From Gonapodya prolifera JEL478 (taxonomy: Eukaryota > Monoblepharomycota > Monoblepharidomycetes > Monoblepharidales > Gonapodyaceae): 58,206 nt of DNA. The stretch is taken from positions 299,420 to 357,625 of the forward strand of contig KQ965770.1 of assembly GCA_001574975.1 (NCBI GenBank), read 5' to 3'. A program made the translations under genes and the position numbers. This document shows positions 9,379-50,668 of the stretch, piece by piece. Positions within the stretch are counted from its first letter, which is position 1; every line of letters begins with the position of its first letter. The notes below the pieces were generated by a model. It was not told the origin of the DNA and did no database searches. It saw nothing but the letters and a program-made list of their open reading frames with translations.

Positions 9379-11268
9379 ATGCTGGTCGCAAAGAGCGCAC
9401 GCGCATGCATCCGCAATCATGCTCGCGCCCTTCGATGTGTTGCGCCGACAATGAATCGATCGCGAAACATCTCAGGATTCGCGAGCGTCGTGAATTGTAC
9501 GTTCATTTCTCAAAGCTTCCGTCGCCGGGATTCCGATATCAAACACCCCCGAACATCTAGGGTCAGAGGGGCTCACGGATGAGCAGCTGGAGTTCCAGCA
9601 AACCGCCAAAAAGTTTGCGGACACCGAATTCGTGAGTTACCCTCAACGTTTTTCGAGCCGATGCCACCTCTGACGCAGGTTTTTGAAGGCTCCAAATATG
9701 CGCGAATGGGATTTGAATGAAATCTGGCCGCAAGAAGCCATGCGGAAGGCAGCGGAACTTGGCTTCGGAGGTGAAGATGCACACCATTCCGGCTCATACA
9801 TCCAGACCGGCTGCCCATGACACGCAATCGAATACCTCAGCTATATACTGCTCGCCCGACTTTGGTGGAACCGGTCTGGGCCGTTTGGACGCCTCAATCA
9901 TATTCGAGGCGCTTGCCACTGGAGATGTCTCGACGACTGCACTGCTCTCCATACACAACATGTGCGCATGGATGATTGACGAGCACGGTAGTGTGGAGCA
10001 GAAGGAGAAGTACCTACCGTCACTGGCGTCGTTCGAGGTGCGAGTTGTGTTGACCCCAAAGTGTACAACATTCTGTCTTCTTATGATCATCGCCGACAGA
10101 AAATGGCCTCGTATTGTCTCACGGAGCCCAACGCTGGCTCAGACGCTGGTAATCTTTCTACTTCTGCTCGGAAGGAAGGGGATTATTACGTCCTCAATGG
10201 CTCCAAGGTTGGTGAGAGTCATTCTTCAAAATCTTCGAAAATTTGACTCTAGTCCCTCCAGGCTTTCATTTCCGGTGGTGGAGACTCGGAGGTATACGTT
10301 GTAATGGCGCGAACAGGTGTTGCGGGACCCAAGGGAATCTCTTGCTTCATCGTAGAAAAGGGAACGGAAGGACTCTCGTTCGGTGCGAAAGAGAAGAAAG
10401 TTGGGTGGAACTCTCAGCCGACACGTGCGGTTATTTTTGAGGATTGCAAAGTGCCAGCGTCCAACCTCGTCGGGAAGGAGGGTGAGTGGGTTGTAATTTC
10501 TGTTTCAGATTGGTGAAATAATCTCTTGCATCGCTTTGTGTAGGGCAAGGATTTTCCATCGCCATGAACGGCCTGAACGGTGGGCGCCTCAACATTGCCA
10601 GCAGTTCTCTTGGTGGAGCCCACGCCGCGCTTGAGCATGCCTTTGAGCATGTCAAACAACGAAAGCAGTTTGGCAAACCCATCTCTTCGTTCCAAAATAC
10701 ACAGTTCCGACTGGTAGATATGGCGACAGAGCTGAATGCCGCCAGAATGATGGTGCGAAGAGCGGGCAAGGCAATGGACGAGCAAAACCCAGCAGGCGCT
10801 GCCCTATGCGCGATGGCGAAACTGGTGAGTAATTGCGTGCTTTTGTTGGCCAAAGCGTTTCTCACGGTCCTTGTTGGTGTATTTAGCACGCGACGGAGAA
10901 ATGTTATGATGTGAGTTGAATATCCCGTTCCATCTCACCCGACACCGAATGACGACGTTAAACGCGCTATAATGGGACTAGATTTGTGACCAAGCACTGC
11001 AACTCTTGGGTAAGTCACTGTTCGCTCCAAGGAACCCACAACACTGGCGGTAATGTTATATTCGTACCGACAGGTGGATACGGTTATCTCAAAGACTATC
11101 CCATACAGCAGTACCATAGGGGTAAGTTTCCTTTTTCCCTTCCTTCGGGCCGCATCAGAGTCAATATGCTTGCGCATACGAAACTTAGATTTGCGAGTTC
11201 ACCGAATTTTAGAGGGTACAAACGAGATTATGAGAGTAGTTGTAGCGAGAGAAATGTTCAAAGAATAG
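9379..11268 (+). CDS. ACAD8-like: Isobutyryl-CoA dehydrogenase (ACAD8-like), copy 1
   Basis: Eleven exons splice in frame to 418 residues; the last are 10887-10910, 10982-11009, 11074-11121 and 11189-11268. The N-terminus ([19 protein letters not shown]) is arginine-rich and lacks acids, as a mitochondrial presequence should. Landmarks: [32 protein letters not shown] (flavin-binding block), [59 protein letters not shown] and [15 protein letters not shown]. The match is specifically to isobutyryl-CoA dehydrogenase of mitochondrial valine breakdown. The catalytic base is likely the glutamate of LEGTNE. Exon 3 appears to use an acceptor ending GAAG (9685-9688), because the nearer GCAG would break the frame. 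No frameshift is present. Confidence 0.93.
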
Positions 11269-13171: not shown

Positions 13172-14857
13172 ATGCTAGCCGCAAAGAGCGCACGCGCATG
13201 CATCAGAAAATCTACTCGCGTGCTTCAATGTGCTACTCCGACGATGAATCGACCGCGAAACATCTCAGGATTCGCGAGTGTCGTGAACTGTATGTTCCTT
13301 TCTCAAAGCTCTCTCCGCTGGACTTCCGATCTCAAGCAGCTACGAACATCTAGGGTCAGAGGGGCTGACGGAAGAGCAGCTGGAGTTCCAGCAAACCGCC
13401 AAAAAGTTTGCGGACACCGAATTCGTGAGTTACCCTCAACGTTTTTCGAGCCGATGCCACCTCTGACGNNNNNNNNNNNNNNNNNNNNNNNNNNNNNNNN
13501 NNNNNNNNNNNNNNNNNNNNNNNNNNNNNNNNNNNNNNNNNNNNNNNNNNNNNNNNNNNNNNNNNNNNNNNNNNNNNNNNNNNNNNNNNNNNNNNNNNNN
13601 NNNNNNNNNNNNNNNNNNNNNNNNNNNNNNNNNNNNNNNNNNNNNNNNNNNNNNNNNNNNNNNNNNNNNNNNNNNNNNNNNNNNNNNNNNNNNNNNNNNN
13701 NNNNNNNNNNNNNNNNNNNNNNNNNNNNNNNNNNNNNNNNNNNNNNNNNNNNNNNNNNNNNNNNNNNNNNNNNNNNNNNNNNNNNNNNNNNNNNNNNNNN
13801 NNNNNNNNNNNNNNNNNNNNNNNNNNNNNNNNNNNNNNNNNNNNNNNNNNNNNNNNNNNNNNNNNNNNNNNNNNNNNNNNNNNNNNNNNNNNNNNNNNNN
13901 NNNNNNNNNNGGTGTTGCGGGACCCAAGGGAATCTCTTGCTTCATCGTAGAAAAGGGAACGGAAGGACTCTCGTTCGGTGCGAAAGAGAAGAAAGTTGGG
14001 TGGAATTCTCAACCCACGCGTGCGGTTATTTTTGAGGATTGCAAAGTGCCAGCGTCCAACCTCGTCGGGAAGGAGGGTGAGTGGGTTGCAATTTCTGTTT
14101 CAGATTGGTGAAATAATCTCTTGTATCGCTCCGTGTAGGGCAAGGATTTTCCATCGCCATGAAAGGTCTGAACGGTGGGCGGCTTAACATTGCCAGCAGT
14201 TCTCTCGGTGGAGCGCAAGCCGCGCTCGAGCACGCCTTTGAGCATGTCAAACAACGAAAGCAGTTTGGTCAATCCATCTCTGCGTTCCAAAACACACAGT
14301 TTGAACTGGTCGATATGGCGACAGAGTTGAATGCCGCCAGAATGTTGGTGCGAAGAGCGGGCAAGGCAATGGACGCACAGGACCCAGCAGTCCCTGCCCT
14401 ATGCGCGATGGCGAAACTGGTGAGTAATTGCGTGCTTTTGTTGGTCAAAACGTTTGTCACAGTCGTTGTCGGTATATTTAGCACGCGACAGAGAAGTGTT
14501 ATGATGTGAGTTGAATATTCTGCTCCATCTCAACCGACACCAAATGACGTTGAGCGTGCTTTAATCGGACTAGATTTGCGACCAAGCACTGCAACTCTTG
14601 GGTAAGTCACTGTTCGCTCAGAGGAACCCATAACACTGGCGCTATTTTCTTTCGTATCGACAGGTGGATACGGTTATCTCAAAGACTATCCCGTACAGCA
14701 ATACTTGAGAGGTACGTTTCCTTTCTCCCTTCCATCGCCCGCATCGGAGTCAATATGCTTCCGCATACGATACTTAGACTTGAGAGTTCACCGAATTTTA
14801 GAGGGTACAAACGAGATTATGAGAGTAGTTGTAGCGAGAGAAATGTTCAAAGAATAG
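13172..14857 (+). CDS. ACAD8-like: Isobutyryl-CoA dehydrogenase (ACAD8-like), copy 2, interrupted by an assembly gap
   Basis: Same exon plan as copy 1. The presequence is [18 protein letters not shown], and the visible blocks are [60 protein letters not shown] and [15 protein letters not shown], ending at TAG 14855-14857. Exons 3 to 5 and part of 2 and 6 fall in the run of N. What is visible has no frame break. Coding differences from copy 1 are few and mostly conservative (for example [10 protein letters not shown] against [10 protein letters not shown]), so both copies probably make the same enzyme. Confidence 0.88.
13469..13910. other. Assembly gap (442 N)
   Basis: A run of N inside dehydrogenase copy 2. 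The corresponding stretch in copy 1 (9676-10315) is about 640 bases, so the gap length is probably an estimate rather than a measurement. Confidence 0.95.
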
Positions 14858-17275: not shown

Positions 17276-17985
17276 TCAACGGGGTTCCATTTGGGTGTGA
17301 GGTGCCGATTGGTAAACAACCGCTGGCTGCTGCACGTAGGAGGCCGGGTGGTGGTTCCAGGGCACATTTCCATGTTCCTTAAATTCGGAGATGGTCACAA
17401 CCATGGGGGGGAGCGGAGATTACGAAATGGGGAACTCACGGAGGGTAATCCGTTGTTGCCATTGGGTCCGGCCTCGGCCTCAACCACTGCAGAGTTACCT
17501 CGGATCCACTCCTCATCTCTAGGTACTATGTCGATGAGAAAGTCGAACATGTCCGACCTCGCGACGGCTTGGGCGAAATCCGAGCGGTTCAAAGTTCGTC
17601 TCCGGTCTTCTTCGGCGTGCATCCACGCTCGAAGCGTCATCTCTTCAATAAAAATTTCGGCGGCTTTGGCAAGGAGCATGGGAGTTTCGCCCGAAATCAT
17701 CTTGTCGGGGTAGAAGTCCGCTTCATCGGAGTGCTTCGACAAGCAGACGCGCAGGTTGGGCAAACTACACACCAGGTTCTTCATCGCATCCTCGTCACTT
17801 CGCATGACCTTTTTGACACGCGCAATCGGCAAACTGTGGCTCTTTAGGTCCTCCAGACTGGTAGAAGCCATATGACGTTGCTGGTTCTGCCAAAACGCCT
17901 ATCGAAGTCCAAAAACATATCATCGTCGTCAATCACCTAGAAAGCAGTGTATCTCGGTGGGGATCGCTCTATTTACCGCGATCAT
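17276..17985 (-). CDS. HAP5: CCAAT-binding factor subunit HAP5 / NF-YC
   Basis: The histone-fold core is unmistakable: SLPIARVKKVMRSDED, SGETPMLLAKAAEIFIEEMTLRAW, RRRTLNRSDFAQAVARSDMFDFLIDIVPRDE. The preceding residues FWQNQQRHM are typical of HAP5 and lie upstream of the ATG at 17871, so I extend the gene through an acceptor at 17899 to a small first exon (17985-17977). An in-frame 72-base intron (17772-17701) falls inside the histone fold. The last exon (17377-17276) encodes a short proline/glutamine tail. Total about 165 residues. With HAP2 and HAP3 it binds CCAAT boxes; the histone-fold pair is with HAP3. The exact start codon is uncertain. Confidence 0.9.
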
Positions 17986-18186: not shown

Positions 18187-19847
18187 TTAATTCATCTCGC
18201 TATCTCTTTTTTCTAAGCTCACGTATTTCCTCAAATGTTCGGGTACACTGCGGTAAAGCCCCTTCGTTTCAAGCCATGTTTTGGAAAACAGGCGAGATAG
18301 ATATCGCCCTGCACCGTCGCACAGCACGGGCACGACAGTCTTCCCTGGTCCGAGCATTTTAGACACTCGATACGCGGCGACAACTTAAGACAGGAAGATG
18401 CACCGAGGAACAGGCTGAAAACGACTTCATATCCTCAGAAGATTATCCCATTTTCGTTGGCAAGGCACTCACCCTTCTTCGTCGAGCAGTCCGAAAACCA
18501 TTTCGATCGTTGCCTCATCCTCCATCTTCAGTGCACCATCAACTTCTTTGGCCTCGAGTGCTGGCCGAAGGTTATCTGTCACGACCTTGCCCGATCCCCT
18601 CCGTTATAGAGCTCCCTCCGCGTTCTAGTTGGCCTGTCGTTATGTAGGAGTGCAAGACTGACCCCGGTGGGTCGGCGAGATAGATTTTCACAGAAGAATT
18701 CAGACTTTTAAGAGAGTGGGCGACGCCGAAACGGGTACCCCCAGTGCCTGCAGTGCATGACACTAGAAATGAGTGGATTGGAAATAGGGAGAAATTGTGA
18801 GATGGGACGTACCTGTTGCGCATGTGAACGCATCAACTTTTCCGCTAGTTTGGTCCCAAACTGAGAGGGCATGAGTGGTGACGTGGTGACGAGATAAGAC
18901 GGGGTGGTATGGTACTTGCTTTCGGGAACTGCAAGTTGAAGTCAAGCCTTGAAAGAAGTCACAATTTCTGTCTACGCAATAACTCACCAGTTGTCTCCAC
19001 GTGCGCTCGCCGGTTTGCAACGTCGTCTGACCATGTACAAATCTGACAACTGAAGAGCAGAAGGTCATGAACTGGTGCTCACCAAATTGAGCAGTCCACA
19101 CAGCATTCTCGGTTCTCTCTGCAAAATCTCGAGCCTGATGGCTGTAGTTTGCTGGGTCTTCGTACGCGACAGCGGGAACTGTAACGTGGGATGGACACGT
19201 CAACCTTCAGCGTTCGCGGAAATGGCCTCGGCGACTCACCAGGGTGCACGTCCGCACCAAGCATTTTCAGCAAGTCAATATTTTCTTGGGATTGCGTGTT
19301 CGGCACGTAGATGACACATTTGTAACCTCCTCTGCTCCGGCAGACGTGAGAAAGTCCAATCCCAGTGTTACCCGCCGTCCCTTACAGAAGACACGACCAT
19401 AAGCTTTTGCTGGTACACGTAAGCTCGCGGTGTCAAAGTACCTTCAACAACTGGTTATCAAACGGGAAGGGGGACATTGGTACGGCAACGAATTGGACCC
19501 GTACATCCGGTGACGGATACCCACTGACACCCCCTGGTTTGACAGGTCCACGCTCTTCGGCGTCCTTTACGAGGTATAAAGCGGCACGATCCTTCACAGG
19601 CCCCCTGAAGCGTCGTTTATGGGAATGACGAGTTGAGAACATCCGCTTACTTTTTGAACGCGATGAGCTGCTCACCAGGTTGCATGAAGTCCGCCCTTCC
19701 GAGAATCTCGCATCCTGTTTCTTCAGACAAACGATTCAGTCGGATCAGTGGTGCGTTGCCGATTGCTTCCGTCAATCCTCCGGCGATTCGAAGCGAAGAA
19801 GGAACACTTCCGTAGAGAGAAGTGAGAAACGGGCGTGTGGCAAACAT
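18187..19847 (-). CDS. Cysteine synthase (O-acetylserine sulfhydrylase-type), with microexons and frame breaks
   Basis: The family order is clear: [123 protein letters not shown] and [13 protein letters not shown]. It resembles the fungal cysteine synthase with a mitochondrial-type leader ([21 protein letters not shown]). The lysine of KDRAA should bind PLP. Two 9-base exons are needed to restore conserved motifs. Three single-base deletions remain: at the first splice junction near 19604, in GQG-R-VTDNL near 18583, and near 18387 in the last exon. With those allowed for, the protein ends ...[12 protein letters not shown]. Cysteine synthesis from O-acetylserine and sulfide is the expected activity. 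Confidence 0.8.
18920..18928 (-). other. 9-base microexon with a GC donor in cysteine synthase
   Basis: TTCCCGAAA sits between an acceptor (acttgcag) and a GC-type donor (gcaagt). Joined in phase it reads V-P-E-I-W, restoring the conserved PEIW before DQTSGK. Skipping it keeps the frame but loses the motif. Confidence 0.65.
19442..19450 (-). other. 9-base microexon in cysteine synthase
   Basis: TTGTTGAAG between ...aaccag and gtactt. It joins PGV to VEG, rebuilding VVEGTAGNTG, the conserved substrate-binding segment of the family. Confidence 0.7.
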
Positions 19848-36557: not shown

Positions 36558-37568
36558 TCACACCTCCGCATACACTTCAACCTCGCGCTCAGTCCACTCC
36601 CACAACACCTTTCGCGCCGCCTCGTTCCCGTCATGCCAGGTCCCCTTTTCCCTTCTACCAACTGGTCCATAGAACCCTCCACTCTCCACTGTCTCCCTCT
36701 TGGCCATGCAAGCCCACAGGTAATTCTTACACCCATCCTCGGGAGTCGTATACCCGCCGTAGAGAAGTAATCCAAAGATGTAAAGAACAGTCCGGTGTAG
36801 TAACGAAGCCTTGGCTGTGCCGGGCGTGTCCACAATACCAGGGTGGATGACAAGCACGGTCAAGTCGTCTTGATTGCGCTTGGCCAATTCGATCGCGTAG
36901 AGCACCCCCGCCACTTTAGAGCGGGCATAACTTCTCCCTATTGGCGTTTTCGCATCCTTGAACTTTGCCGGATCAGGCGGCCCCGTCTCAAGGCCCAACC
37001 AGGCTAACCTGGCGGCGATCGAGCTGACAAGAACAACGCGTCCATTCCTGCCGGGGGCCCTCTTGAGCGCGGGCAAGAGCATCCTGATCAGTAAGGCGTT
37101 CGCCATGTAGTTGACTCCCATGTGGGGCTCGTACCCTTCGGCGGTTGTCCCACCGGATTGTGCAAACACCAACCCGGCGTTGAGGATGAGTATGTTCAGG
37201 TGACCGGGTTCCGCCACCGCTTCTAGAACAAAGCGAGCAGCATTTCGGACGGCAGACAAAGAGGACATGTCACACGGGACGAGAGTGATTTTGGTGGTCC
37301 TTCCGGGTCGGTCTGCAATGTCTTTTGCCGCGGTGGAGGACGAGGGACGGTGCAGAATGATGATGTGGGCAGGGGGGTGAGCGAGAGTGCACAGCGCCCG
37401 GACAGCGGCGCCGCCGAGACCGGTGGCTCCTGGAACATGGTCGCAATTCAAATCGTGAATCGTTCAGTATCAGCCACAAGAAAGAGGCCCACCGCCCGTG
37501 ATGAAAACTATTTTCCCTGTCAGATCTTCCCCCTCGAAGGTTACCGGGTCGAAGTGCTTCTCTTTCAT
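36558..37568 (-). CDS. Short-chain dehydrogenase/reductase (retinol dehydrogenase/WWOX-like)
   Basis: Exons 37568-37493 and 37429-36558 give 315 residues. The cofactor loop is split by the intron: VFITGG|ATGLGGAAVRAL. Then LVPCDMSSL (adenine-ring Asp), LNILILNAGLVF, GRVVLVSSIAARL (catalytic serine) and SYARSKVAGVLYAI (YxxxK). The C-terminal region HPGIVDTPGT and YGGYTTPEDGCKN is typical of classical fungal SDRs acting on lipophilic alcohols or ketones. The true substrate is unknown. Frame intact. Starts 615 bases downstream, on the transcript axis, of the cyclin L stop. Confidence 0.88.
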
Positions 37569-38182
37569 GTCTACGGCCAAGTCGTGTTGATGTGGAGGTA
37601 TTTATGAGTCACAGATCACAACATCCTGCTTTGACCGCAGCGCACCACCCACAACTTTATCACCCACATGGCAGCGAAACGTTCTCCCCCGCGCGGGACA
37701 GTGGCAATGGCGGTGGCTGGTTGGTACAGCTGCATGAGTGTGATTCCGATGGGCGTGAGCGGAATACGGCTTTCGATGCTTTTGTCATTCGCCACTGCGG
37801 TGCGGCTCGTTTCCTGCCATCCATGGGTGCTGGAATTCTGAACGGAGCAAAGGTAAGTGCTTCGCTTGAGACTGATCGAGCGTTCGTTTGGCGAGGGCGT
37901 GGCGAGGGTGGGGTATGTAGTGTTCCCTCTCAAGTATCTCTAGCTGTAGAAGCTGCGGCCGGGGGTGGGTCCTCTGACGTACGTCTAGTGACCATCGGTA
38001 GCGGAATAAGGCACGAGTCAGAGATACCCCCATTCTGTCCGCGTTTGTCCCTTTGCTGTTCTCAGTGGTCCTGTCAACTTGCTCCATCGCTCTTCCGCAC
38101 ACCACGAGACCAACAATCTCGCAAGGCACTCGTGAAAGCATTCTTATCAAGAGTTATAGTTGGCGCATGTATTTCCACAAAC
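37569..38182. other. Intergenic between SDR and cyclin L
   Basis: SDR promoter region and cyclin L 3' end. No motif seen beyond this. Confidence 0.45.
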
Positions 38183-39785
38183 TCATCGCCGTTCGCGATC
38201 TCGCGATGTCCTCCTATCCCGTCGTCTCTCCCTCTCCGACCCTTCACGGCCCCCGTACAGACCTTTATCTCTGCTGCGATACGAATCTCCACGGTGTCGT
38301 GCAGGAGACCGCGACCGCGACCGTGTTCTGGAGGGGGTTCGACTGTCAAATGCACGGAATGTCAGAATACAAACCACCATTCACGACCCAGGAGGTACAA
38401 TTCCAGTCCTCACCTTCTTCTGCGATACCTGTCACGCGAGCGGCTTCGATGCCGGTTGCGACTCCTATTCCGGCTTCGGCTCCTGCTTCTACTCCGGCTT
38501 CGGCTCCTGCTTCTACTCCGGCTTCTTTCACCCCTTCTCATCCCACTCCGACTCCCAGACTCCTCTCTGCGAGACGAGGTAGGCGCTCTATCATTCCCAA
38601 CGACCTTTCGTCCGTCGTCCGGTCGCGGTGGCAACCCGTGCTGCTGCTGGTTGTGGTGGGTACTCGCCGTATGCACGGCACCGGGTGTCTCAGGCCGCTC
38701 AGCACCCGATACCGTCGACGACCCTTGCAGACGTCGTGCCGCATCTCCGCCGTTCTGCGTCACTGTCCCCTCCGTCGCACCAGGCGCTTCCGACCTCCCC
38801 TGTCCCTGTCCCTCTCCTTCGTGCCCTTCCTCCCCGTCCACTCCCTCCGGCTCCTCCCTCCCCGTCGCGTCCGCCCCCTCACGCGCCTTGACCCACGGTT
38901 CGACCTCTCTCAAACTAACCGGCATGCCTTTCCTACGAATCTTCCTCGAGTACGTGGATCCCAACACCGCGCACGCAATGTCTACTTCCTCCGGATCCAC
39001 TTCGAACACGGAAAGCCACCGTGTCGGGAGAGGCGTCTGGGTGTGCAAACACGCGAGGTGGATCGACGCCGCGGCGAGCGTGGGTGGGGGGACGAGGACC
39101 GGCAGAGGGGTTCGGAGCCTGGGTTAGGAAGTTTCGAGTGTGAGCATGCAGCACTCCCCACCACGCGAGAAAAGCACATACATGTCATTAGCGTAGTTCC
39201 AAGCCTTCTTACAGACCTCCTGGTCCTCATCCAAGTCGAGCGCCTTCAAGAAGTTGACCAGGAGACCGTACGGCAGCTCGACGTGGACGTTGAACCCGAG
39301 CCGTCTAAGAATGTGCATTTCGCCCGTAAGGCACGCGGTACGGAGCTCGAAGTACGCCGCGCTGAAGGACTCGAGCGGGTCTGTGAACTTGCGGCGGTGC
39401 CGCTTCACGCAGTAGTCGAAGACGGACAGGATGTCGGCGATTTTGCGTGGCTGCTCGGCGACTTTGGAGGCGAGGAAAACAGCGCCGAGGACCGCGTCCT
39501 GTCGGGGCGGGACATGTGGGGTTGTTCTTTGTGGTGGTTCGGGCGAGGCGAGGGGAATCACCTACCCTGAGACCGTACTGCCGAAAAGACGAGACGAAGA
39601 AGAATCGTTGGAACAGCACGAGCGCTATTGCGATCGACGTCTGCGGCCTGTGTTAAAAGGTGGCAACATAATCAGCGACGCTCCAAGACACCACAAGAGA
39701 CCGACAGCTCGAACCAACAATTGTAGAAGTATTCCAACAGACTGCACGAGCTCCGACCCGAACAGACGCAGGTCGGTCTCAAGGT
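38183..39785 (-). CDS. Cyclin L with C-terminal RS domain
   Basis: Conserved first cyclin box: LRLFGSELVQSVGILLQL|PQTSIAIALVLFQRFFF, FRQYGLR, AVLGAVFLASKVAEQPRKI, FSAAYFELRTACLTGEMHIL, LGFNVHVELPYGLLVNFLK. Second box: LRTPLPVLVPPPTLAAASIHLA and RWLSVFEVDPEEVD. The tail is a long arginine/serine domain around 38410-38560, then a last exon with RTPSRTRSRSRSPARH and an RDRERR end at 38183. Cyclin L partners CDK11-type kinases and couples splicing to transcription. The exon beginning near 39785 lacks its upstream partner; the start codon lies further 5' and I could not place it. Confidence 0.9.
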
Positions 39786-45129: not shown

Positions 45130-48100
45130 TCAGAATGCCCTCTTAGCTCCTTGCGTGAAGCCTCTTTGATGACGCCCTCGAGAGTCCATGCTAGAAGCAT
45201 CCGAGTCGTATGGTGTCCGCTGCTGTGCTGGAATCCGATCAGGTGGCGGTGTCCACCCGGAATCAGTCTGCTTTTGATGCGACATCCACATTCGCAACTC
45301 CGACGCCATGTCCGTCGCGAGCTTTTCTCGCGTGAGGCGCTCCCATTCGTTCCAACGGTGCATTCGCATTGAGCCCTCGAAATCACCCTCCTTTTCACTG
45401 TGGTCGCCTCCCTTCTTCTCTCCAGAGACCATACGCGTTTGTCCCCAAGAGAAGTCGTCAAAGTGCTGCAAAACAAGATATACTGCGTTAGCTCAACTGT
45501 GGTGGAAGTCGCATGAGACATCGTACACACCCAATACGCATACGTGGGCAAAACAAAGTTCCAAATAGGTAAACTGAAGAGGTAAATAATCATCCAGAAG
45601 ACGTATTTGAGGTTGCGGGAGGTAAGGACAATAAGGACGGCAGGAAGACCCAAAATGGCGGCGAGGAGGAGGAGGGGAATAATGGGCTTCTCAACGACGA
45701 AGAAACTGCTGACCACGAGGTAAATGGTGAAAGAAATAGCGGCGGGTAGCACGACAGTGCCGATCAGTTCCATGAAAACGACTGTGTGAGGTTGAGAGAT
45801 GTGAGGTCGATCACATTGTGCGATCAGTCGCTCAGAACTCACCAAACTGCATCGAAATGCAGAACGTGCCACACAGATCCTTCACGAGCACCAATTCCAG
45901 CAGGTTGTGAATGGTCGAGTTGATCCAGCGCCGGCGCTGTGACAACAGGATGCTGAACTCGTCCGGGACAAGAGTCTTACACTTGGCCTGAGGCACGAAA
46001 AGCATTTTGCGCTTCGGGAAGGTCTTGAGCATCAGGGTAGTAAGGTAACTGTGCGGTGGTGGTGGACGGTTTAGCTGGTGGCGTCAAACTGCTGAGAAAG
46101 TCGGACAAGACTCACCGATCCTCGCCCAGAAGAAGCAGGTTCTTCTTGTGCAGGGTATCAATCACGTTTTCCGAATACTGCTCCACAATGTCCGGGTTTG
46201 CCAGGATGGGGACGTAGTAACCGTGCGGCCCTTTCGGTGCCTTGATCCGATACATGCAGAAACATCCAGGAAGACATGTAACACCTCCGAAAACAGACTC
46301 GAACGCTTTCGACAGGTGGTGCGAAATGTGGTACTCGAAGACCTGAATCATGGTGACCCAAGAACCCCACTTGTTCTCGATCTTGGTCTCCCCACACAGT
46401 CCGATAACATTGGGATCCTTCATCATGCACGCGATCAAATGCCTCAGCGAGTCCGAGTACACCTTGGTGTCGGCGTCCACCATGAGAAGCGCCTCGTACG
46501 TGTCGGGGGGCACACCACCAAGGGCCCAGATCTTGGAGAACAGGTCGTACTCAAAGTCGGTCAACCGATCGTCGAAAATGACTTTCTGAAGGAAGTTCAT
46601 GATGACAATCTGCGAGTCACGCTTTCCACGGTTCCCGGGCTTCTTGAGCGTGCCCGTCTTGTACTGGCGCTGCTCCTCGTCATTGCCGACCTTGATGACA
46701 CACACAATTGGGACCCGGCGGCCAAAGTTCTCGTACGCGTTTTTACAGTAGCCCGCTACCACCTTGGCCTTGTTCTCGCGCTTGAAACCGTCGGCGATGG
46801 CGACGTAGGAGCCCTCGATGGGTGGGTCCGGGAAACGGATGGGGTTTAAAACCTAAACGGCGGGTGGGGTTGAGCGTCGGGTCGCACGACGTGAGTTCTC
46901 GATGACATGACTCACATCATGTGCGGGCACGATCAGATCCATGACAATGTCCGGGGTGGGCTTGCTGTTGCCGGACCCGTGAATGATACCGTCGCACACA
47001 ACAAGCAGCATCTTGCGTTCGTCGGGGTAGTCCGTGAGCGACAACGAGTCGATCGTCTGCTTCATGGAATCTTCGCCTTCGGAGTAACTGAGGGGGGCAA
47101 CCAACAGCAAAACGTTGGCCCTCTGCTCTCCGACTGCACGGCACGGCACCATTAAACCCCCATTCCCACAGACCACCTCAACTCACCACGTAATCATGAG
47201 CATGACATACATCAAATCGCTCCTCCACCCTTCCGGCAACTGCTTGGGCTTCCACATCGCATTCGGCAGAATCGAGGACGAGTAACTCCCGCTCGTCATC
47301 ACACTCTCCGTGTCCGAATTCACGCCCCTATCCTTGGCGGGTACGATCTCGACCTTGATCCCGCCCGCGCCGTCGGGGACACGACGCGCGCGGAAGTTGC
47401 CCGACCCGACCTCGGACATGGCCATGTCGCGCCCGTTGGGGGAGATGGATACCATTTTCTCGGACAGGGGACCGCGAGTGGGTGGGCGTGGGTCGTTTCG
47501 TACGGCAGAGGCGTCGCCGAGGCGCCAGGAGAGGGACCAGGAGAAGAGCACGGCGAGGGCGAATTTGATGACGACCTGGGTAAAAGCGAGGTGGGTGGAG
47601 TGATGAGCCACAGACATTGCCAACAAAGGGACCTCGGGGGGAACTTACCACACCAACAATGAACACAAGCGACACCCACAACACGACCTGCGAAACAATA
47701 CATCCGGCCGTCTGGGGCTCCAGCACTCCAACCTTGAACACCTCCGAAAGACACTGCCCGCGCAGCTTGAGCTCCGGTGTCGCCGAAAGGGCCTTGGTCA
47801 TATCACCCCCCAAATGCGTCAGGACAATATTGTAAACATCGTTTCCCAAAAACTTCGGGTTCTCCGAAAGGAGCCTAAACACATCGAGCACGTCGCCATT
47901 GTACACCGTCAAGAGGGGCGGCNCGACTGTGACGTTCCCTGCCTTTTGCTGTGGCGCGGAAGCGACAATGTCTGTCCACTCGTAGAACACCTCGCCCTGG
48001 TACTGGAGTCCCGCGAGGGCCGTCCGCGCCGGCTGGGTCTGGTGGCACGCGGGGGTCTGCCCGACAAAGCGGGGCCAGATGTTAAGCGCGGTGCAGTTCC

Positions 48101-49238
48101 AGTTCTTGAACCCGGACACGATCTGCGCGCAGACGGATTTGGTGCTGTCGATGGGGAAGAAGTAGCCGATCTCATTCCCGACTGCCCACGTGTATATGTC
48201 GACGGGACCCTGGGTCGTGGTCGGGTGGGTGAACCCGGCCTGGGAGTAGGCCTTTCCGTGAATGGAGAAGTACCCGATGCTCTTCATGACGCTCGCCTGC
48301 ACGCGTGGCGTGGGCGCCCCGCAGAGGGCCTGGGTGAGCCCGAAGGTGATAAACCCGACCGCGGAGCAGATGAGAACGATGATGGTGCACAGCGCCACCT
48401 TTTCGCGCCACGCGTGGCGGATTTCGGGGGTTTTCATGCCAAACATCTCGATCAGGAAGGGAGGGTAACAGCACGTCAGACACATGGTCATGTACCGCCA
48501 CCACGAGGCCGGTTCGTCGTCGTCCCGATTGCGGCGTTGCGTGACCACGGGCTCCTTGACGCGCCCGAGAAGGACGGACCGGGATCGCACGGGGCGGCCG
48601 CTGGGCATGGCTCCGTTGTCGACAAGGGGCTGGTTGGATCCGATAGAGCCCTGCGAATTGATGTTGCGGCGGGACGAAGTGCGGGCAGCCACAGTGGGGG
48701 CAAGGGGTTCGGGTCCCATCCCGGCACCGTCCTCGCCCATCCCGGGAACGCGCGGGCGGCGATCGCGTTGTCCGCGGTTACGTTCGGGCCTGACGAGGGA
48801 TTTGCGGCGCGAGATGGGGCCGGTCATGGTTTCGGGCGGGAGGGATGGCGTCTCATCGACGACGGGGCGGTGAGCGGGCATGACGATGGACCCGGGCGCG
48901 GCGCGGCGCGTGGACTGGTTGTTCAGTATGCCTTTGGAGGCGGAGCGGAGCATGCCCCCGCCACCGTTGAGTGTGTTGTCCGACCCGAATCCGTTGTCGC
49001 CTGGGTAGTCTGGTGGCGGGCGGCCGTACCCGTTAGAGGAAGGTGGTGGGGCGCCGTTTTGGCCGAACCCACGCGCGGTCGAGGCGCTGCGAGGAGGCGC
49101 ATTTTGGTAGTAGTTGTTGTCGCCCGTGGCTGGGCGGCGTTGGGACTGGCCCCCGTAGGACTGTTGTCCTCCGTCGGGCGGGACTTGTTGGTACCCGCCG
49201 TTGTAGTTGTTGTAGTTTTGGTTCGGAGGAGGCGGCAT
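45130..49238 (-). CDS. CHS: Class IV chitin synthase (CHS3-type)
   Basis: About 1,230 residues in seven exons (49238-47649, 47575-47187, 47133-46916, 46852-46116, 46048-45843, 45781-45531, 45465-45130). A disordered Pro/Gly/Asn N-terminus precedes a first membrane helix near residue 275 ([20 protein letters not shown]), an extracellular loop, and a second membrane pair. The catalytic domain has [31 protein letters not shown] (DxD), [26 protein letters not shown] and [17 protein letters not shown] (QxxRW). C-terminal helices follow. One N at 47924 makes a residue unknown. Exons 2 and 3 do not join in phase (donor phase 2, acceptor needs phase 1), suggesting a lost base near 47130-47190. The enzyme polymerises UDP-GlcNAc at the plasma membrane. 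Confidence 0.92.
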
Positions 49239-50668
49239 TGCTGCTGCAACTCAGCGGTCCGGTCCAAGCGGGTAAAAAGGGGGATGGGATCTGTCACTGA
49301 ACTCGATCGTTGCAGCGACCCTGCGCTTCGTTGACTGCACTATCCACACGCAGATGTCAATGCGTTTTCACTCCCTGTGCGCTGTCTTCTCTCTGCGTGC
49401 GGGGGAAACGTGTGAGTTGGCGGAGTCGCAAGCATCCGCAAGCCCGGGTGACAGCGGGAGAAAGAGAGCAGCGGGGATGCGCAGGCGAGAGCGTCGCAGC
49501 GTGGGCAGGCAGGCAATCCAAATGGCGTGGCGGGGTGAGCGGGCGTTGGAGTGGTGGTGCAGGCGGGCAAGGACAGCAGCCGTAGCAGGGGCTGAGATTG
49601 CAAAAGCGCACAAGGGTCGCCCACAATTTCGACTCACGTCTCTGCGTCTCTTCCTTGCTCTCGCTCGTCCTCGTCACTGCAGACGCCTCGAATCTCTCCT
49701 AGTGTGGCACTTGCCTAATGGGGTGTGGACGGTTTCAAATGCAGGGCTCGATTCGGTCTGTGCCACAGTTGCCACTTTTTTGCATTTGGGCGATTGGTGA
49801 CGCGAGTCCGGATTCTGTAGCAGTTATTGCTATTTTATCATTGTATTCGCGATGGCGGAAATGGTTTTTGTGACCGGGGCAGATGGATGAAATGTGATGA
49901 CGGCACCTCAGTCTGATGCCAGTGAGCCGGGTCCCGACCCCGTTCCAAAATACAACGCCGAACCGACATTCAGCTACTCTACAGTCACCCCTGTCCGTTC
50001 TTTAGCTTTGAGCACCCGTAGCTGATACTTGGCGTCGGGGTCGGGCGGGGATTGAAAGCGGCTAATCACTGATTAGTCGGTCTTCTCAAAACGAATCTGA
50101 AACCTGACGAGCTGCCTGGCCTTGGTATTTCCCTTGCCGCAACAGAATACCCACTCGAACTGGAGAACTAAAGTGTACAAAAGCAAAAGTAATCAAATAA
50201 ATCATCACTACTACATTCGCATTGCACACCAACGTCCGTGCGGCGTGGGAGGGGGAACGGGGCTGGGGGAGATAAAGGGGAGAGGTGCGCCACATAAGAA
50301 TGAGAGGGAGAGGGAGGGGGGAATAGTCCTTCAGAATGGGAGAGGCGAAGGGGAGACGGGTCGTGGAGACCGCGTCGCATACGCAGGGAGAGGGCGGCGT
50401 CGCATATGCACCTCAGGGGCGCGGCAAAGGTCGCATATGCATGGGGCGAGGGGAGGTCCGCGTCGCATATCCACAGTCCACAGGGAGGGCCACGTCGCAT
50501 ATCCAAGGGAGAAGGAAGGAGAGTGCGACCCAAATGTCCATGCACCTCCCACGCTCGGACTCGGCGTTCAGTCCATTCATCGCCACCGTGTTCGCATTCC
50601 TTCCCAATGTCCGTACTCGGTGCAATTCCTCACCCTCAACCACCGCCACCACTCCACCACTCCACCTC
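49239..50668. other. Chitin synthase upstream region and spacer
   Basis: A 1.4 kb gap holding the chitin synthase promoter on its left and the SKA1 3' end on its right. The only structure seen is the CGTCGCATAT repeat at 50373-50504. Open frames on both strands lack motifs. Confidence 0.5.
50373..50504 (+). repeat. Five regularly spaced CGTCGCATAT motifs
   Basis: CGTCGCATACGC at 50373, CGTCGCATATGC at 50398, GGTCGCATATGC at 50429, CGTCGCATATCC at 50461 and 50493. Spacing is 25, 31, 32 and 32 bases, with purine-rich GGGAG filler. Confidence 0.8.

Follow-up and report, generated by a model that had tools for sequence, protein, structure and literature searches.

The window, that is, the whole stretch of 58,206 nucleotides from Gonapodya prolifera JEL478 that was analysed, has a G+C content of 53.4% and 443 Ns, which include a scaffold gap (Table 1) and a lone N at position 47923. 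Its stop-free frames, which match chitin synthase domains, NF-Y subunit C, KH domains, and acyl-CoA dehydrogenase, mark it as part of a fungal nuclear contig; scans of the window with Rfam at gathering thresholds and for tRNA genes gave no match. Two chitin synthase pieces, compared with solved structures at E values up to 0.001, also gave none. A long minus-strand frame of 640 aa (47328-49250), which has a Pfam match (CHS4), overlaps a plus-strand frame of 575 aa (47607-49334), which has none. At 37505-39570 (+) a further two long frames, with lengths of 540 and 522 aa, overlap each other and have no Pfam match. The NF-Y subunit C frame contains about 27 extra in-frame residues (17704-17784, -) that are missing from the aligned solved relative, and this insert is probably a stop-free intron with a length that is a multiple of three. 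The closest solved relative of the acyl-CoA dehydrogenase gene is ACAD8; this gene has short exons as well, of 24 and 28 nt.

The gene considered here is located on the minus strand at 19847-18187, and an earlier note had described it as a cysteine synthase gene with two microexons of 9 nt. The identification is borne out, as the open part of the gene, 196 residues long, scores 147.3 bits with PF00291 (PALP fold; cut-off 35) and has NF007989 (cysteine synthase A) as its top NCBIfam match. The NF007989 score is 276.8 bits against a cut-off of 387, for a query of only 196 residues and a profile of 334. The same part aligns to PDB 5jis with E = 6e-64, PDB 5i7w being another solved relative, and the modelled protein contains the PLP-lysine motif VKDRAA. 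A search of genome contigs yielded 167 loci, of which 80 were kept as the homologue set, with identities of 55-62% in the best segment. All 80 are bacterial, so that the search of these contigs for fungal orthologues returned none among the kept loci; the 20 matches listed from a plasmid collection search (495 records) were likewise all bacterial, and viral contigs gave four pattern-matching stretches and no true relative.

Table 1. Features of the cysteine synthase gene and other elements, in window positions
Feature	Position	Strand	Basis or remark
Exon 1	19676..19847	-	start codon, N-terminus, to RADFMQP; profile match from 19790
Exon 1, alternative end	19651	-	alternative model
Exon 2	19525..19604	-	translation and profile gene model
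Microexon 1, TTGTTGAAG	19442..19450	-	profile gene model, conservation, shuffles
Exon 4, ending GADVHP	19240..19380	-	profile gene model
Exon 5	19083..19178	-	profile gene model
Exon 6	18988..19026	-	profile gene model
Microexon 2, TTCCCGAAA	18920..18928	-	profile gene model, conservation, shuffles
GC-AG intron, 59 nt, gcaagt...ctcag	18861..18919	-	profile gene model
Exon 8	18813..18860	-	profile gene model
Exon 9, with frame break near 18580	18473..18747	-	translation and profile gene model
Exon 10, with frame break near 18386	18187..18414	-	stop after SEMN; profile match ends 18256
ACAD8-like acyl-CoA dehydrogenase gene	9572-11265	+	10 exons in profile match; intact
Scaffold gap	13469-13910		run of 442 N

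The gene model was obtained with a splice-aware profile aligner that allows GT donors, GC donors at 1.5%, AG acceptors, introns of 40-160 nt, and frameshifts at a cost. Its profile was built from the 80 bacterial homologues and no hint of microexons was given; nevertheless, it returned both 9-nt exons with identical ends, together with the GC-AG intron. The model consists of ten exons separated by nine introns, which range from 56 to 74 nt and all start with GT or GC and end with AG. Eight of the nine are in phase 1, as read from the translation and the profile model. The introns flanking microexon 1 are 74 and 61 nt long and those flanking microexon 2 are both 59 nt, while 14 other introns from this gene and the ACAD8-like gene, a set that takes in the first cysteine synthase intron with its doubtful donor, measure 54-71 nt (mean 62.9, SD 5.3). 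The 74-nt intron thus lies 3 nt above that range. The branch-point pattern YTNAY occurs in seven of the nine introns, before microexon 1 only very close to the intron end, but as a count without a control this says little.

The first microexon is flanked by ...aaccag and gtactt, and the second by ...cttgcag and gcaagt, which agrees with the earlier proposal of two 9-base blocks between plausible splice sites. At the sequence level each is an internal coding block shorter than the 15 nt taken as the upper limit for a microexon, with an acceptor and a donor, and phase is kept in both the joined translation and the profile gene model, again as proposed. Microexon 1 supplies the end of an I codon, the codons for V-E, and the start of the G codon in GGVIVEGTAGNTG; microexon 2 supplies the end of a V codon, the codons for P-E, and the start of the I codon in ETTVPEIW. 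The phase-1 joins to the neighbouring exons produce PGGVIVEGTAGNTG and ETTVPEIW, respectively. For the former, the better donor is at 19524 (gtgggt), since the earlier GT at 19530 leads to PGVVEG, two residues shorter. The view that each block restores a conserved motif was upheld: across the 80 homologues, the microexon 1 columns are invariant for V, E, and G (80 of 80 each), with I in 65, and those of microexon 2 are invariant for E and I (80 of 80 each), with P in 55. At the split codon preceding microexon 2 the gene encodes V, whereas 71 of the homologues have G there and the other 9 have A; this is a small point against the microexon model. The shared phase of the two blocks, which had been regarded as unusual along with their shared length, is unremarkable in a gene with eight phase-1 introns out of nine, and the pair requires no special cause.

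The condition of the gene downstream, which the earlier note overlooked, is less favourable. From exon 2 onward the frame stays open across both microexons up to about 18580, where it meets a break and a stop; the homologous sequence then goes on in another frame, with a second break near 18386. Neither break disappears when the frameshift cost is set to 6, 9, 12, or 15 nats. The 19676-19604 junction is doubtful, as it holds a third break at costs of 6 and 9, and at 12 and 15 the donor moves to 19650 and eight residues are inserted right before VKDRAA. With frameshifts forbidden, the best of the models enumerated still contains a stop and loses ten columns. With two or more breaks downstream of the microexons, the assembled copy has no open frame across the whole enzyme in any of the models found. 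The two C-terminal frames past the breaks (44 and 65 aa) have no Pfam match alone, so their homology follows from the profile alignment.

One explanation for these breaks is that they are local assembly or base-calling errors in a functional gene, whose microexons would then be live and constitutive. This is possible but doubtful. The nine introns with GT or GC starts and AG ends are what a functional gene would have, as are the lack of an in-frame stop codon from exon 2 up to the first break and the presence of VKDRAA. Against it, the gene is broken two or three times within roughly 1 kb (per 972 nt), compared with no break over the 375 profile columns of the ACAD8-like gene. The intactness of this 1125-nt yardstick argues against a uniform error rate, although at the rate seen here it would be free of breaks about 3-10% of the time (Poisson). 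A short-chain dehydrogenase gene was considered as a second yardstick and dropped, its relatives being too distant (best identity 30%; 5 of 10 genomes matched). Moreover, the protein has an extra Gly (SRGGYKC; 19320-19345, -) missing in all 80 homologues, and RF replaces LA in the GTGGTLAG loop (18720-18735, -), the R standing where all 80 homologues have L; both are signs of decay or divergence. The gene also departs from its homologues at 7 of the 64 columns invariant across all 80, or on average at 29 of 142 (20%) when 200 random subsets of eight sequences are used, while the ACAD8-like gene departs from its eight homologues at 7 of 91. These figures point to decay as well, yet they were not used as support because the homologue sets of the two genes are not equally broad. 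Rather than local sequence error, we prefer the reading of this single sequence as that of a copy that is probably a young pseudogene.

The preferred context of a GC donor includes an exonic AG before it. The donor after microexon 2 (gcaagt) has AAGT at +3 to +6, and it was chosen by the model over the alternatives; the description of gcaagt as the preferred GC form is correct on the intron side but fails on the exon side, where the exon ends AAA/gcaagt with no G at -1. GT-AG accounts on average for 98.7% of the splice-site pairs in fungi, and for GC-AG a share below 1% is given in model organisms (PMC7072748), so that one GC donor among nine introns is a modest surprise. It may be a decayed GT in a decaying gene. 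Alternatively, the true donor would be the GT four bases downstream (AAAGCAA/gtacca), leading to a 13-nt exon, a break of frame, and no GC-AG intron. Such a GT is indeed present, and a decaying gene need not keep its frame; still, this choice is improbable, as the 9-nt exon stays in frame and restores E-I, found in 80 of 80 homologues, and the profile model picks the GC in spite of the penalty.

The existence of the microexons was examined by dinucleotide shuffling of the sequence that separates the flanking exons, with the 6 bases at its start and the 20 at its end kept in place. At site 1 none of 1000 shuffles scored as high as the real sequence, and at site 2 a single one of 1000 did; in an earlier run none of 130 did so at either site. 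Even so, 198 and 76 of the 1000 shuffles, respectively, led to the call of an exon no longer than 30 nt, at a lower score bar one exception; a microexon call alone is therefore weak evidence, and it is the score that counts. Masking the microexons with N left the path unchanged at a cost of 7.8 nats (microexon 1) and 4.4 nats (microexon 2), values that gauge residue information only and not exon skipping. When GC donors were forbidden, the model skipped microexon 2 in favour of a single 127-nt intron at a cost of 7.1 nats, and with one shuffle in 1000 exceeding the real score the support at site 2 is moderate. If there were no microexons, one long intron would span each site and three residues would be lost from each motif. 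For the second gap this reading benefits from a single intron that stays in frame (ETT---VWDQ) and from the small size of the 7.1-nat cost, but it needs introns of 144 nt (site 1) and 127 nt (site 2), compared with 54-71 nt in the 14 others, and a change of length in motifs that scarcely vary, the PGG..GTAG segment having a length other than that of the query in one homologue out of 80 and ETT..WDQ in none. Together with the shuffles, this makes it very unlikely.

The explanation that we consider highly probable is that of a CysK-type gene of the PLP-dependent beta family in which paired introns left the microexons between them, these being constitutive in the ancestral gene, and of which the present copy is likely a young pseudogene. 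It is based on the sequence, the phase, the conservation, the intron lengths, and the frame breaks in the assembled sequence, from which we infer splicing itself, the constitutive inclusion, the order of removal, and the pseudogene status. Two short phase-1 introns just 9 nt apart within a conserved motif would leave a 9-nt exon between them, and this would have happened at two such places. In fungi whose introns measure around 60 nt, splice-site pairing presumably takes place across the intron. Each short intron would be recognised across itself (intron definition), and the flanking introns would be removed in turn, each removal fusing the tiny exon to a neighbour; with successive removal, no recognition of the tiny exon as such would be required. 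Because motif residues are encoded by both 9-nt blocks, every functional version of the gene is expected to include them constitutively, and the intact ancestral gene would have done so. The broken copy would still display the ancestral exon structure or, less likely, belong to a functional gene with local sequence errors.

Regulation of the microexons, with the skipping of one or both acting as a switch toward a shorter, in-frame, inactive enzyme, is highly improbable. Both lengths are multiples of three, the GC donor looks weak, and a microexon switch is reported for Trichoderma Xlr2 (PMC11121469); however, the near-constant motif lengths given above do not fit with it, and the downstream frame is broken anyway. 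Least probable of all is a live gene with old microexons, common to a fungal clade and jointly regulated, that tune cysteine synthesis via the weak GC donor.

The microexons of this gene are ordinary in kind, as the class of tiny exons to which they belong is already known, and the rarity attributed to them is not supported, given the plant and fungal cases reported in PMC8831610, PMC1184071, and PMC12940212. A full-text literature search, with most subscription journals outside its coverage, found no paper joining cysteine synthase and microexon. The case is a clean example of paired short introns leaving microexons in conserved motifs, which a gene model made without protein evidence could easily drop. 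It is also a warning that a striking splice structure may sit in a broken gene copy, where a non-canonical donor need not be functional.

With the bacterial CysK-like cysteine synthases (NF007989; PDB 5jis and 5i7w) the gene has the protein family in common, but there the homologous stretch is a single open frame without introns, unlike in the fungal gene. A close parallel in form is found in plants, where AP2 and invertase genes are reported to have microexons of the same 9 nt and phase 1 inside conserved motifs, often missed by annotation (PMC8831610). These are supported by RNA-seq and conserved across species, whereas the fungal case is one broken-frame locus known from its sequence alone. 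In Fusarium CYP621A the evidence for a fungal microexon in a conserved motif likewise came from an intron that was too long and from comparison with relatives; that exon is 1 nt long and is a candidate in 24 genes, with transcript reads from two species (PMC12940212), compared with 9 nt at a single locus for the cysteine synthase. Finally, the P450 genes of Phanerochaete chrysosporium, likewise a fungus with short introns, contain microexons of 2-10 aa, down to 6 bp (PMC1184071), and differ in the enzyme family and in the many genes involved.
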